Source of the DNA: Magnetovibrio sp.
GTDB lineage: Bacteria; Pseudomonadota; Alphaproteobacteria; Rhodospirillales; Magnetovibrionaceae
DNA length: 64,000 nt
Assembly (NCBI GenBank): GCA_026196495.1
Contig: JAPHSY010000001.1
Location: forward strand, 62,001-126,000
Reading direction: 5' to 3'
Part shown: positions 6,181 through 11,696 of the stretch, piece after piece
Numbering within the stretch: the first letter of the stretch is position 1
How the letters are laid out: every line of letters starts with the position of its first letter
Notes under the pieces: model-generated
Databases searched by the model: none
Told to the model about the DNA's origin: nothing
The model's input: only the letters and a program-made list of their open reading frames with translations
Program-made: the position numbers and the translations under genes

Positions 6181-6324
6181 GGAGTGCCTCTTTTTGGGGC
6201 CGTGGATGGATTTGGATCGCTTGCCACCACGTTAAAAAAGGCTAAGTGGGTGTACTCCGGCTATACCTAAATTGCCAAGACGCCCCGGATCCATTGGATC
6301 AACTCAAGACGGGGATAATGAACC
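6181..6324 (+). promoter_or_regulatory. Structured metK leader, candidate riboswitch-like element
   Basis: By eye the leader forms a three-way junction: closing stem GGAGT/ACTCC (6181-6185 with 6254-6258), hairpin GCCTC-TTTTT-GGGGC (6186-6200) and stem CGTGG/CCACG (6201-6205 with 6227-6231). Downstream, GATCC-ATT-GGATC (6288-6300) sits inside CCCC/GGGG (6283-6286 with 6311-6314), and that GGGG is the likely Shine-Dalgarno of metK. The position upstream of SAM synthetase suggests SAM sensing. I cannot assign it to a known SAM riboswitch class, and no folding was computed. Confidence 0.5.
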
Positions 6325-7532: not shown

Positions 7533-8231
7533 ATGACTTCAGATACCGATCATAACGGTCCTGGATATCTACGTTCTTACGGCCGGCGGCAAGGCAAAAA
7601 GCTTCGCCCCGGCCGCGAACGTTTGGTAACTGAGCTGTTGCCGCAAATTGCGGTGTTGCCTGGCACGCCGGTGCGCGACTTGTTTGATGCGGATATCAAA
7701 TCACTGTGGATGGAAATCGGTTTTGGCGGTGGCGAACATTTGAGCGCCCAAGCCCAGGCCCATCCAGAAGTCGGCATCATTGGCTGTGAGCCCTTTATCA
7801 ATGGGGTTGCCAAGCTGCTCAGCGAAATTGATGAGCATGATCTGCAAAACGTGCGCATTCATGCCGATGATGCCCGTGATATGTTTCCAGATGTCGCCGA
7901 TGGTGCGTTGGAACGGGTGTTTATTTTATTTCCTGATCCCTGGCCCAAGGCCAAGCATCACAAACGCCGTTTAATCCAAACCCCATTGTTAAACGAATTG
8001 GCGCGTATGCTTGAAGATGGTGGTGAGTTTCGTTTTGCCTCTGACCATATGGGTTATGTGCGTTGGGTCTTGGCGTTTGTGCTGAAACACCCCGACTTTG
8101 AATGGTTGGCTGAAGGCCCCGATGATTGGCGCCAGCCCCCGGAAGGTTGGACCACTACGCGCTATGAGCAAAAGGCCTTAGCGGGTGATAAGATGGTCTA
8201 TTTGCGTTTCCGTCGAATACCGCGTGGCTAA
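7533..8231 (+). CDS. trmB: tRNA (guanine-N7-)-methyltransferase TrmB
   Basis: SAM-dependent enzyme that methylates G46 of tRNA. The SAM-binding motif I is MEIGFGGGEHL. The family signature FPDPWPKAKHHKRRL (about residues 131-145) and the C-terminal TTRYEQKA segment are present. 232 residues, ATG start. It follows metK, the source of its cofactor, by 14 bases. In related genomes rimP usually comes soon after; here a four-gene cassette intervenes. Confidence 0.95.
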   Translation: MTSDTDHNGPGYLRSYGRRQGKKLRPGRERLVTELLPQIAVLPGTPVRDLFDADIKSLWMEIGFGGGEHLSAQAQAHPEVGIIGCEPFINGVAKLLSEIDEHDLQNVRIHADDARDMFPDVADGALERVFILFPDPWPKAKHHKRRLIQTPLLNELARMLEDGGEFRFASDHMGYVRWVLAFVLKHPDFEWLAEGPDDWRQPPEGWTTTRYEQKALAGDKMVYLRFRRIPRG

Positions 8232-8337
8232 CACACCTATTAAATTCCAATTTACGAATATATGACCCTAGACAGGGCTGATTAGACGTGTATTTCTTTT
8301 GTTGAGTTAAATTCGTGTGTTATAGGCATTTCCCAAT

Positions 8338-8754
8338 ATGGCCACATTTGATCCTGCTGATCATAAAGTGATTGCGACGACCAGCACCCCGGCATTGGGG
8401 CAGGCGATGAAGATCATGCTTATGGCTATGGGCTTTGGTGGTGTTGAGATTGTACAGCCTGAAGATATCTGCAAGCGTGCAGAAGAATTAAAACCAACAT
8501 TTATCCTCTACACCCCTGAATATTTAACGATGCCGATGGCAGAGATAGTTAAAATTGGCTGTCCGTGTTCGCAAAAAAAAGAATGCCGGAATGCTCTGAC
8601 CGTTATTTTTCTTAAAAAGAAGACGTTCGAAAGTATCCAGGCGTCCAAGCAGATTGGCTTTGACGGGATCATTTTCGCGGACCAATCCATGGATCGATTG
8701 CTCACCGCTTTGGAAACGGTCTACCAAGTCGGCTTAGATCAAGAGACTTTGTAA
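8338..8754 (+). CDS. Receiver-like (pseudo-REC) protein of unknown function
   Basis: A 138-residue protein whose pattern of hydrophobic strands and helices matches a CheY-type receiver fold. The site expected to hold the phospho-accepting Asp reads FILYTP (residues 55-60), and the usual C-terminal Lys-Pro reads FADQ, so it should not be phosphorylated in the normal way. An insert with three cysteines (75, 77, 83; CPCSQKKEC) precedes the fourth strand (TVIFLKKK) and might bind a metal. It is the first gene of a compact cassette. The fold assignment is pattern-based. Confidence 0.6.
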   Translation: MATFDPADHKVIATTSTPALGQAMKIMLMAMGFGGVEIVQPEDICKRAEELKPTFILYTPEYLTMPMAEIVKIGCPCSQKKECRNALTVIFLKKKTFESIQASKQIGFDGIIFADQSMDRLLTALETVYQVGLDQETL

Positions 8755-8769
8755 ATTAGGAGATACCCC

Positions 8770-8964
8770 ATGAAGGACATCGTCAAACGCTTAAAACAGA
8801 TTAACGATGAAAGCCTTATTATGGAGGTGGTTAATGATTGCCTTGATGCAGCAGAGGAAATTGAATCTCTACGGGTGGAGTGCAACAAAAAGTCAGAAGC
8901 CTTAAAACAAATTAAAATGATTGCGGCCCGCGAAGAAAAAATCAGCACGAAGAAAAAGAAGTAA
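8770..8964 (+). CDS. Small coiled-coil protein, unknown
   Basis: A 64-residue, highly charged protein predicted to be nearly all helix: heptad-like leucine/isoleucine spacing through LKQINDESLIMEVVNDCLDA, then a lysine-rich end (STKKKK). A good ribosome site (AGGAGA) sits eight bases before the ATG, and it starts 15 bases after the receiver-like gene, so I regard it as real despite its size. It may be an adaptor or partner for the neighbouring proteins; this is inference. No family recognised. Confidence 0.65.
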   Translation: MKDIVKRLKQINDESLIMEVVNDCLDAAEEIESLRVECNKKSEALKQIKMIAAREEKISTKKKK

Positions 8965-8994
8965 GCTAAGCCTGGGACTATTTAGGAACACAAG

Positions 8995-10257
8995 ATGTCT
9001 AAACGGAAGATCTTTTCCCCGGCAGAGATGTCTCGAACCCTTGTGGATCACCGACATTGGTTGAAGCATGACGGCGGTGCCATGGCTGACCTGACCATGT
9101 CGAACTTGCGCGGCTTTAATTTAACCCGTGTGGATTTGCGCAAAGCCAAATTGGTTGGTGCGGCTATGTGTGATTGTATCTTAATCCGGGCTGATTTACG
9201 TGAAGCCGATTTGTTTGCCGTTGATTTTTGTGACGCTAACTTATCCCAGGCTGATTTACGTGGATGTGATCTGCGTGGAACCTATCTTCGCGGTGCAATT
9301 TTAGATCATGCCAATTTGGAAAATACTGATCTTCGCGATGGCAATTTGATCATCAGTGATGATCAAGAGCTTCGATTCCTCACCCATCGTCATGATCCAG
9401 CCGGGCGCGAGTTGGCCGACCTGAGCGGGGTGCAAATGGTGGGCGCACGTTTATCACAGGCCACAATCATTCAAACAGATTTGACGGGGGCATCGCTGCA
9501 AGGTGCCATTCTCAATGGTGCTGATTTGCGTGATTCCAACTTAACGGATGTGGATCTAAGCGGTGCCAATTTGGCAAAAGCAAACTTGTCCAATGTTGAT
9601 TTGTGTGGGACGGACCTCTCCGGAGCGGATGTGAGCGGTACAAATTTTGAAAATGCCAGTATGGCAGCGTGCAATTTAGAAGGTGTTGATCTTTCCACCG
9701 CCAAACTGAACGGTGCACGAATGGTGCGGGACCTCTCCGAACTCGATATCGATATTCGCAAGGTATTGCGCGAGCACGGCCAGTGGGTGTCATCGTTTGG
9801 GGCCGCGGGAACCCGTGCGGTTTTGGATGGTTATGATTTCAGCTACGTGGATTTTCGGGGCTTCAACATGAGCGGTGCAACCCTAAAAGGGGTTGATTTC
9901 ACCGGATCAAATCTTGCCGGAATGGAAGTCAACATGGCGGACTTCACAGGCGCGAAATTATGTAAGGCCAACATGATGGGAGTGGTCATGTGCGGTGCTA
10001 ATTTTAAAGATGCAGATCTAAGTGGGGCCAACTTGCGCAATGCGGATGCCGGCCCCCAGGAGATTCTCACCCGATCCGGGGAAAAGACCGATAAAGATTG
10101 GCCGACAAAATTTACCAATGCCAATCTGAGCGGCACCAATTTGATACGTGCTGATTTTAATAATGCAGATTTGACAGGCGCCAATTTAATGCAGGCGAAA
10201 ATTACTCACATCAATTTGATGGATGCCAATTTGACCTCTGCCATTATGGAAGAATAG
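8995..10257 (+). CDS. Pentapeptide-repeat protein with two internal modules
   Basis: A 420-residue protein built mostly of A(D/N)Lxx pentapeptides, which form a right-handed quadrilateral beta helix. Two modules are visible. Each opens with the same L-x2-H-x2-W pattern (L16-H19-W22 and L258-H261-W264), followed by a Gly-rich turn and then repeats such as ADLREADLFAVDF and ANFKDADLSGANLRNAD. The repeat run is broken around residues 120-140 and 345-365 by charged linkers. No signal peptide or enzymatic domain is seen, so it is probably a cytoplasmic scaffold. DNA-mimic function is known for some family members but is not indicated here. Confidence 0.85.
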   Translation: MSKRKIFSPAEMSRTLVDHRHWLKHDGGAMADLTMSNLRGFNLTRVDLRKAKLVGAAMCDCILIRADLREADLFAVDFCDANLSQADLRGCDLRGTYLRGAILDHANLENTDLRDGNLIISDDQELRFLTHRHDPAGRELADLSGVQMVGARLSQATIIQTDLTGASLQGAILNGADLRDSNLTDVDLSGANLAKANLSNVDLCGTDLSGADVSGTNFENASMAACNLEGVDLSTAKLNGARMVRDLSELDIDIRKVLREHGQWVSSFGAAGTRAVLDGYDFSYVDFRGFNMSGATLKGVDFTGSNLAGMEVNMADFTGAKLCKANMMGVVMCGANFKDADLSGANLRNADAGPQEILTRSGEKTDKDWPTKFTNANLSGTNLIRADFNNADLTGANLMQAKITHINLMDANLTSAIMEE

Positions 10258-10332
10258 ATTAAGGCGCGGCCTTTTGTGAGCACGCTATACTCACCATCGC
10301 CCCCCAAACTGAACAGGCCTGATCACAAGACC

Positions 10333-11010
10333 ATGTCCAAAAAAACCAAAGCTGCGACACCGGGTACTTTTCGCAAAATTTTTGATTTCTTTGATGCTCC
10401 GATCATGAGTGTTGATTGTGGCAAACATTGCATGCCGTTAAACGATGGCGTTCCGGTTTGCTGTGATACGGGAAATGCCATTCCGGTGATGCAAAAAGCG
10501 GAATGGAAGCATTTGCGCACGCGTTCGAAAATGTGGGGCAAGTTCACGCCTTATGATGAAAACTCACAAGAAATTGTTGATGAACTCAGCGACAGTTGCA
10601 AAGCGGTAGAATGCAAAGGCTTCAAAAAGTGTGAGCGTGACAATCGCTCTTTGGCCTGCCGCACCTTTCCGTTTTTCCCCTATTTCACCAAAGACGGGGA
10701 ACTCCTGGGGTTAAGCTACTACTGGCACTTTGAGGACACCTGCTGGGTGATTTCAAATATGAAGAAGGTCGATCAGCGATTTATTGACCAATTTCTCGAA
10801 GCTTATGAAATTTTATTTGCCGATGATGATGAAGAATTGGAGGTTTTTCAGGATTATTCGGCAAGTCAACGCCGGGTGTTCTCACGCCGAAAACAAGATA
10901 TTCCCGTTATCAATCGCAAAGGTAAGGTCTTGCTGATCCGACCCAAGGGTAAGGGGGTCAAGAAGGGCAGCCTCAAAGACTTACCCAAATTTGCACCATT
11001 TGATGAATAA
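10333..11010 (+). CDS. Cysteine-rich YkgJ-like (zinc/iron-chelating) protein
   Basis: A 225-residue protein with nine cysteines in the first 140 residues (29, 33, 43, 44, 89, 94, 100, 109, 137). The segment RSLACRTFPFFPY resembles the CRxFPF signature of the YkgJ family of putative zinc- or iron-chelating proteins. The C-terminal third is basic and cysteine-free (GKGVKKGS). The frame is also open from GTG at 10276, but the ATG at 10333 gives a more natural N-terminus; neither has a strong ribosome site. It is the last gene of the cassette. Function and metal are unknown. Confidence 0.65.
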   Translation: MSKKTKAATPGTFRKIFDFFDAPIMSVDCGKHCMPLNDGVPVCCDTGNAIPVMQKAEWKHLRTRSKMWGKFTPYDENSQEIVDELSDSCKAVECKGFKKCERDNRSLACRTFPFFPYFTKDGELLGLSYYWHFEDTCWVISNMKKVDQRFIDQFLEAYEILFADDDEELEVFQDYSASQRRVFSRRKQDIPVINRKGKVLLIRPKGKGVKKGSLKDLPKFAPFDE

Positions 11011-11114
11011 AGAGTGAAATGTAAAGTGATCGAGAACCCCTTGCGCTTTTGTGCCCATGGGTGTAAAAACCAGCTCAGTTAACAGTCTCGCTGTCCACGT
11101 TGATGGATAATCGG

Positions 11115-11145
11115 GGTGGGTTCCGAGAGGAAACCCGCCTTTTTT
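11115..11145 (+). terminator. Terminator/attenuator hairpin upstream of rimP
   Basis: GGTGGGTTCC and GGAAACCCGCC pair with one bulged A around a GAGA loop and are followed by TTTTTT. It lies 57 bases before rimP. It may end the cassette transcript, or act as an attenuator in the rimP-nusA leader, where premature terminators are known in other bacteria. Confidence 0.75.
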
Positions 11146-11201
11146 GTTTTCAAAATTCAACGGTGGTGAGACTCGTAAGTGGATGAACAAGAGACCGTTA
11201 T

Positions 11202-11696
11202 ATGGATTTGGCCAAACGCATCGCAGACATGATTGCCCCGACCATCGAAGACTTGGGCTTCGAAGTGGTGCGCGTGCAATTGACCGGGGCGAAACACCCG
11301 CGTTTGCAAGTGATGGCCGAACGCATCGACGGGACCGGGATTGATGTAGAAGATTGCGCCAAAATTTCGCGCTCGATTTCTGCAATCTTGGATGTGGAAG
11401 ACCCGATTGCCAGCGAATATGCTTTGGAAGTCAGTTCTCCCGGTATTGATCGTCCGCTAACACGACTGAAAGATTACACGACCTGGGCTGGTTTTGACGC
11501 CAAGGTCGAGTTGGGCGTGGGCCTTGACGGGCGCAAACGCTTTACCGGGCGCCTTATGGGCCTGGACGATAACGATATGATTTTAATGGAAAGTGAGGAC
11601 GGTGATGAATTCGTCCTGCCTTTCGATGACGTTCAACGTGCGAAACTGTTGCTGACCGACGAATTGATCGCGGCAGTCACCTCGGAGCAGACCTAA
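11202..11696 (+). CDS. rimP: Ribosome maturation factor RimP
   Basis: Needed for 30S subunit maturation. The N-terminal alpha/beta domain holds DLGFEVVRVQLTG, and the conserved YALEVSSPGIDRPL lies near residue 70-85. The C-terminal Sm-like barrel contains KRFTGRLMGLDDND. 164 residues, ATG start. Its stop codon shares one base with the nusA start (TAATG), and it heads the classic nusA-infB operon. Confidence 0.95.
   Translation: MDLAKRIADMIAPTIEDLGFEVVRVQLTGAKHPRLQVMAERIDGTGIDVEDCAKISRSISAILDVEDPIASEYALEVSSPGIDRPLTRLKDYTTWAGFDAKVELGVGLDGRKRFTGRLMGLDDNDMILMESEDGDEFVLPFDDVQRAKLLLTDELIAAVTSEQT

Follow-up and report, generated by a model that had tools for sequence, protein, structure and literature searches.

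Four genes that stand in one direction between trmB and rimP of a Magnetovibrio species raise the question of whether such a compact row forms one system or brings together genes of separate origin. The window analyzed here is a stretch of 64,000 nucleotides (contig JAPHSY010000001.1 of assembly GCA_026196495.1, positions 62,001 to 126,000), in which the genes of interest are called g1 to g4 in their order; its own genome is referred to as G000, with the locus in G000:C28. The open reading frames (ORFs) and the flanking Pfam matches agree with the first-pass annotation that the four are co-directional, are separated by gaps of 15, 30, and 75 bp, and lie between the metK-trmB and rimP-nusA blocks. 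That annotation had further suggested a joint function for the row. Comparison with related genomes leads to a different answer: the stretch is probably a composite and not a system, namely a permissive slot that holds the separate arrivals g1 plus g2, g3, and g4.

The distribution of the four genes was followed in 100 related genomes (the window's own included), 317 genomes of the order, and 385 of the class. Among the 100 relatives, g1 occurs in five genomes and g2 in the same five; close homologues of g3 (at least 45% identity over at least half of the length) are likewise present in five, the window's genome and G001, G077, G067, and G057, and full-length g4 is present in 13, own genome included (14 with a fragment; the 32-residue piece of G029 was left out of the 14, as was a second short piece in G008). 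All four genes occur together in one of the 100 only, the window's genome, so joint presence in more than one relative was not found. With P values that ignore relatedness, the genome overlap is complete for g1 and g2 (5 of 5, P = 1e-8) and amounts to two genomes for g1 and g3 (P = 0.02, both in one genus), two for g1 and g4 (P = 0.13), and one for g3 and g4 (P = 0.5). In G001, g1–g2 lie on contig C196 and g3 on another, C203; in G008, g1–g2 lie on C102 and g4 on another, C88. Moreover, g1 is missing from 11 of the 13 genomes that have g4 in full length, and the g4 profile finds matches in 45 of the 385 class genomes. The genes occur separately in most genomes, the outcome that the first-pass annotation had itself named as speaking against a joint function.

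The second line of evidence comes from the slot. A distance between trmB and rimP could be estimated in 26 of 30 rimP loci, no trmB lying within the 1.5-kb flank in the other four (G000, G005, G002, and G007), and it is at most 311 bp in 23 of these 26 (median 207), as expected from the earlier remark that the two housekeeping blocks normally lie close together. The slot measures 2,970 bp in the window's genome, 1,854 bp in G005, and 3,516 bp in G002, and its contents vary between species. G005 carries two canonical single-domain receivers in tandem, 59% alike (L090 8332-9278), directly before a g4 orthologue of 71% identity, and has none of g1–g3 there. In G002 the opposite strand carries a large spermine-synthase-like gene together with a PCMT gene in the slot (L107 6281-9555), and in G003 and G004 the slot is empty. 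Outside the genus, a GAF-GGDEF gene fills it in G038 (L118 3525-4547), and it is about 1 kb long in G033 and G053, with an ORF of no assigned family in G033 (L119 10588-11427); G038 and G033 belong to other families of the order. Some genes are hidden under overlapping frames when only the longest ORFs of a locus are listed; L107, L108, L118, and L119 were therefore rechecked by tblastn. In G007 the contig stops some 740 bases upstream of rimP and shows no trmB up to there, so that the slot is not short in this genome either, and in G001 the rimP search did not find rimP and the slot is not visible. Because of the distribution of the genes together with this slot comparison, the four-gene system is rejected.

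What does hold together is g1 with g2, the conserved unit of the stretch. The two genes are found in the same five of the 317 order genomes and are adjacent in all five, with g1 first, so that the close association proposed for the whole row is borne out for this pair alone. The sites of the pair outside the window are unrelated to one another: in L086 (G001) its neighbors are tRNA-Gln and a LuxR-type regulator with a probable kinase, in L087 it stands between UDP-sugar genes, in L088 beside a superoxide dismutase, and in L089 downstream of an ATP12 gene. The g2 homologues are 59–92 residues long and share a conserved N-terminal half (MKDIVKRLK..SLIM..V..DC.DAA..I..LR) with an invariant Cys24, followed by a variable tail. 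The tRNA-Gln (ctg) of G001 occupies L086 680-753, 140 bases upstream of g1–g2. A search for g1 in genome contigs returned four loci, which match four genomes already found, and no relatives of g1 were found in viral contigs. Four further candidates from the wider g1 searches (G226, G275, G148, and G598) were left out as ordinary receivers by reading; the order search had given two rows besides the five genomes, G598 and a truncated remnant in G022. This remnant (L168 1483-1617) keeps the first 44 codons of a g1 and then passes into unrelated DNA that, by eye, resembles the gene of an ATPase-domain protein.

By prediction, g1 has the (beta-alpha)5 fold of a receiver. Its AlphaFold2 model, built from an alignment of five sequences, has a predicted local distance difference test (pLDDT) score of 81 and a predicted template modelling (pTM) score of 0.77, and it aligns with CheY (6chy) over 123 residues (VIA-align Z 15.2, root-mean-square deviation 2.4); the best Foldseek E value is 7.5e-6, and the matches listed are mostly receivers. 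The g1 profile also picks up ordinary receivers, weakly. No Pfam family matches g1 at E up to 1, none of the five members matches PF00072 at E up to 10, and a sequence search of solved structures gave nothing useful (three matches, best E 0.69). A match to PF00072 is not required of a pseudo-receiver, since section 4 of a recent review counts six small families outside it (PMC12632262). In an alignment with ordinary receivers, the acidic pair, Thr, and Lys are all gone from the window's g1. Across the five g1 proteins, the first Asp of the pair is non-acidic in all and the second in four, and Thr is replaced by Lys or Arg and Lys by Ala in all five. The position of the phospho-accepting Asp holds Thr or Ser in an ungapped alignment, which fits the strand end of the model, and Glu (Asp in G030) with the two-residue gap introduced by MAFFT. 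Judged from these alignments, the canonical receiver active site is lost in g1, and the predicted receiver fold without canonical residues agrees with the pseudo-receiver of the first-pass annotation. The two receivers in the G005 slot provide a direct comparison: they share with g1 the predicted fold, the size, and a similar N-terminal lead-in (xxFDxxxxxVL), but by alignment they keep the acidic pair, Asp, Thr, and Lys, none of which the window's g1 keeps, and they match PF00072 at 1.5e-27 and 1.5e-26.

In its CheY-like fold and its missing active-site residues, g1 resembles the pseudo-receivers (PsR) of the FrzS, RitR, and HP1021 type treated in the same review (PMC12632262). It differs from them in being a free-standing protein of 138 residues that lacks any output domain, DNA-binding or other, in escaping recognition by PF00072, in carrying a CPC-x5-C motif, and in having a g2 alongside in all five genomes in which it was found. 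The cysteines are a second likeness, as section 20 describes redox-regulated cysteines for RitR and the HP1021 group. Cys45, Cys75, Cys77, and Cys83 are present in four of the five g1 proteins and all absent from the fifth (G004), an all-or-none pattern that would fit a joint metal or redox site, though it represents one event. Sections 19 and 20 of the review name protein–protein contacts, ligand binding, and, for RitR and the HP1021 group, cysteine-based dimerization among the ways in which pseudo-receivers are known to work. Along these lines, g1 and g2 would be a phosphorylation-independent signaling or adaptor pair, in which g1 keeps the receiver surface and binds the conserved N-terminal half of g2. 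Tentatively, the four-cysteine site may bind a metal or change its redox state and so alter the contact between g1 and g2. One conceivable extension, which we put forward with reserve, is that g1 and g2 are an undescribed two-gene signaling unit of Magnetovibrio and its relatives, in which the receiver fold has a four-cysteine metal or redox site in place of Asp phosphorylation and signals to a dedicated partner of 59–92 residues, which has an invariant cysteine (Cys24) of its own.

The main rival to such a phosphorylation-independent pair is a decoy role, in which g1 would keep its docking surface and, by binding either to a partner receiver or to a histidine kinase, block or bias phosphotransfer, with g2 as its anchor. 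A fold retained in prediction with the catalytic residues gone from the alignment is what a decoy would look like, and section 19 of the review (PMC12632262) considers pseudo-receivers in heterodimer models and in competitor models. The locus of G001 helps slightly, as its pair adjoins a LuxR-type response regulator and a probable 7TM-type histidine kinase, the latter called from three domain matches that all stay under the curated cut-offs. However, these genes lie on the strand opposite g1, and among the four g1 loci outside the window, where nine neighboring proteins were scanned, L086 is alone in giving kinase or regulator matches; the decoy also leaves the cysteine motif without explanation, and we regard it as unlikely. 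Neither g3 nor g4 has a shown link to g1–g2.

The third gene, g3, encodes an unremarkable pentapeptide protein with two modules. It matches PF00805 with 259 bits (cut-off 20.2; 7.9e-79) in 11 stretches, and its halves align at 28% identity over 174 positions, each module being led by a short H..W segment, which upholds its earlier description as a two-module pentapeptide protein. Under the curated NCBIfam cut-offs it is neither Qnr (83.6 of 240 bits) nor MfpA (80.2 of 360 bits); it stays below the cut-off of HetL and reaches that of penta_Alr5209. It has relatives that match over at least 330 residues at about 27–38% identity in 16 of the 100 genomes, but a close homologue is found in only four of the other 99. 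The scanned neighbors of these close homologues differ, with PEPCK at one site, a MazE-like protein and Mg-chelatase at another, and a molybdopterin enzyme at a third. From its family, g3 would presumably be a right-handed quadrilateral beta-helix that serves as a scaffold or binding protein. Within the literature library searched, no paper combined Magnetovibrio with pentapeptide repeat.

The fourth gene belongs to a widespread uncharacterized cysteine-rich family, in which eight cysteines are conserved in all 41 aligned sequences, and would be a metal-binding protein. Its assignment as YkgJ-like does not stand. The protein shares with YkgJ / CxxCxxCC (PF03692) its richness in cysteine and an RSLxCRxFP segment resembling RPxxCRxxP, and the earlier label goes back to this short motif. 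However, g4 has no Pfam match at E up to 1, and none of 12 members matches PF03692, the sole match being one member's to an unrelated family (E 0.16). Compared with 20 PF03692 proteins, profiles built from 12 or from 41 sequences of g4 reach hhalign probabilities of 0.1–0.7%, with a single 12-column match around CRxFP. YkgJ was therefore rejected for lack of profile support; a very distant kinship with PF03692 is possible. The window's genome has three PF03692 matches above the cut-off elsewhere, and none of the YkgJ papers listed was relevant. The AlphaFold2 model of g4 is poor (pLDDT 55), and a sequence search of solved structures gave no match. Among 41 g4 loci of 19 families, no g1-like ORF was seen around g4 (ORFs of at least 80 residues), and most of the shared neighbors that were followed are shared within one family only. 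HlyD-type genes were observed upstream of g4 in L092 and L150.

The row had also been said to end at a terminator. The hairpin behind g4 was listed by a search allowing one mismatch and had not been listed by a simple terminator scan; it lies behind a conserved promoter-like pair of rimP and belongs to the rimP leader. The same promoter-like pair (CTTG ... GGTGTA), short leader, hairpin, and T run that stand behind g4 also stand before rimP in cassette-free members of the family. Upstream regions of 50 of 57 rimP matches were analyzed (G056, G015, G021, G035, G018, G055, and G048 were left out); a hairpin score of at least 25 was reached in 47 of the 50, as against 3 of 150 dinucleotide shuffles. 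The three regions below it are L057 (20.5, where the hairpin is nonetheless clear), L079 (24), and L173 (16). In the motif described by Naville and Gautheret (2010; PMC2965389), a GGGc..gCCC hairpin with a T run precedes rimP-nusA-infB, 4–130 nt from the gene. The window's stem (GGGTTCC..GGAAACCC) has this form and lies 60 nt before rimP, the distance over the 50 loci being 14–112 nt; a difference is that neither the window's hairpin nor six rimP loci matched Rfam at E up to 1. Because such a hairpin is found in 47 of the 50 regions and fits the attenuator as published there, the terminator is assigned to rimP-nusA-infB. It may additionally halt read-through from g4, and it serves as a caution that a terminator near a gene block can belong to the next operon.

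Taken together, these observations suggest how the stretch may have been assembled. The interval from trmB to the rimP promoter would be a permissive slot, where accessory genes can settle and leave the housekeeping operons intact; it would tolerate inserts because rimP has its own promoter-like sequence and putative attenuator. The simplest history would be repeated lodging at a harmless site, with three unrelated arrivals in the window's species: the pair g1–g2, g3, and g4. Of these, g4 is probably the oldest occupant, because the sister species G005 has it at the corresponding position, behind two ordinary receivers, and it would already have been in the slot before g1–g3 joined.

Several points weigh against a composite of separate arrivals, or against parts of it, and some of them favor the reading that all four genes are one signaling or scaffold system, with the pentapeptide scaffold and the cysteine protein as the means by which the pseudo-receiver and g2 would act. 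The tight, same-strand packing may lead to co-transcription here, from which joint use could follow. Receiver-type genes precede g4 in both sister species, G000 and G005, and in G005 the ATG of g4 overlaps the stop of the preceding receiver, a hint of coupling; a second genome, G001, has both g1 and g3. Around g4, two families (f96 and f123) have a UbiA gene upstream, in 6 of the 41 loci altogether, and one protein of 246–260 residues with no assigned family lies nearby in three loci (families f96, f123, and f158), though none of these neighbors is g1- or g3-like. As to the pair, the g1 alignment has five members only, an Asp is retained in the acidic pair of the G008 protein, and the cysteine argument hangs on the one species that lacks all four. 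Disfavored already by its distribution, with all four genes in a single relative and parts of the row on different contigs in G001 and G008, a four-gene system is very unlikely, and close packing at one site of one genome is no evidence of a system. Very unlikely too, finally, is the acquisition of the whole block at once on a mobile element, for which a GC content below that of the flanks (42–51% in 500-base windows within 8250-11249; flanking windows 50–56%) and a site left empty in several relatives could speak, but against which G005 has its g4 orthologue at the same site without g1–g3, no long direct repeats, only short imperfect ones, bracket the block in 8100-11300, and, in a search that covered viral contigs and PHROG, g1 had no viral relatives and g1, g2, and g4 no PHROG match at E up to 0.01. 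None of the four proteins matched the anti-phage defence models of PADLOC at E up to 0.01.

The features of the locus are collected in Table 1. For g4, a GTG at 10276 is an alternative start; the ATG at 10333 leaves the 75-base gap to g3 and agrees with the start of the G005 orthologue. In eight between-species comparisons of g1–g4, nonsynonymous values (pN) of 0.19–0.29 stand against synonymous values (pS) of 0.62–1.02, and third codon positions are the most variable; since pN is well below pS in all four, they are real genes under purifying selection. A ninth comparison was of rimP. Upstream of metK, the window has a SAM-II riboswitch-like match at 6201-6245 (37.5 bits, under the gathering score of 44).

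Table 1. Features of the trmB–rimP slot in the window, and the UbiA-type neighbor of g4 in other loci
Feature	Position	Strand	Basis
trmB, left flank of the slot	7533..8231	+	PF02390, 4e-45
g1, stand-alone pseudo-receiver of 138 residues (predicted); Cys45, Cys75, Cys77, Cys83	8338..8754	+	Predicted fold, alignment
g2, 64-residue partner of g1, conserved N-terminal half	8770..8964	+	Alignment; co-occurrence with g1
g3, pentapeptide-repeat protein of 420 residues, two related modules	8995..10257	+	PF00805, 7.9e-79
g4, cysteine-rich protein of 225 residues	10333..11010	+	Eight Cys in 41/41 aligned; no significant Pfam match
Promoter-like pair CTTGCG / GGTGTAAAA, rimP operon	11040..11068	+	CTTG ... 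GGTGTA pair in 14/14 family loci
rimP-leader terminator hairpin (putative attenuator)	11113..11145	+	Hairpin score; motif described in PMC2965389
rimP, right flank of the slot	11202..11696	+	PF02576, 1.4e-24
UbiA-type prenyltransferase upstream of g4	L140 2912-3655, L147 2919-3662, L159 2929-3666, also L148, L149, L153		Pfam in the first three, blastp in all six

The abstract of the 2025 review terms the on/off switching of bacterial pseudo-receivers a mystery (PMC12632262). A pseudo-receiver that stands on its own, is constantly accompanied by a small partner, and has a cysteine site present or absent as a whole across five proteins would offer a compact model in which such switching can be studied.

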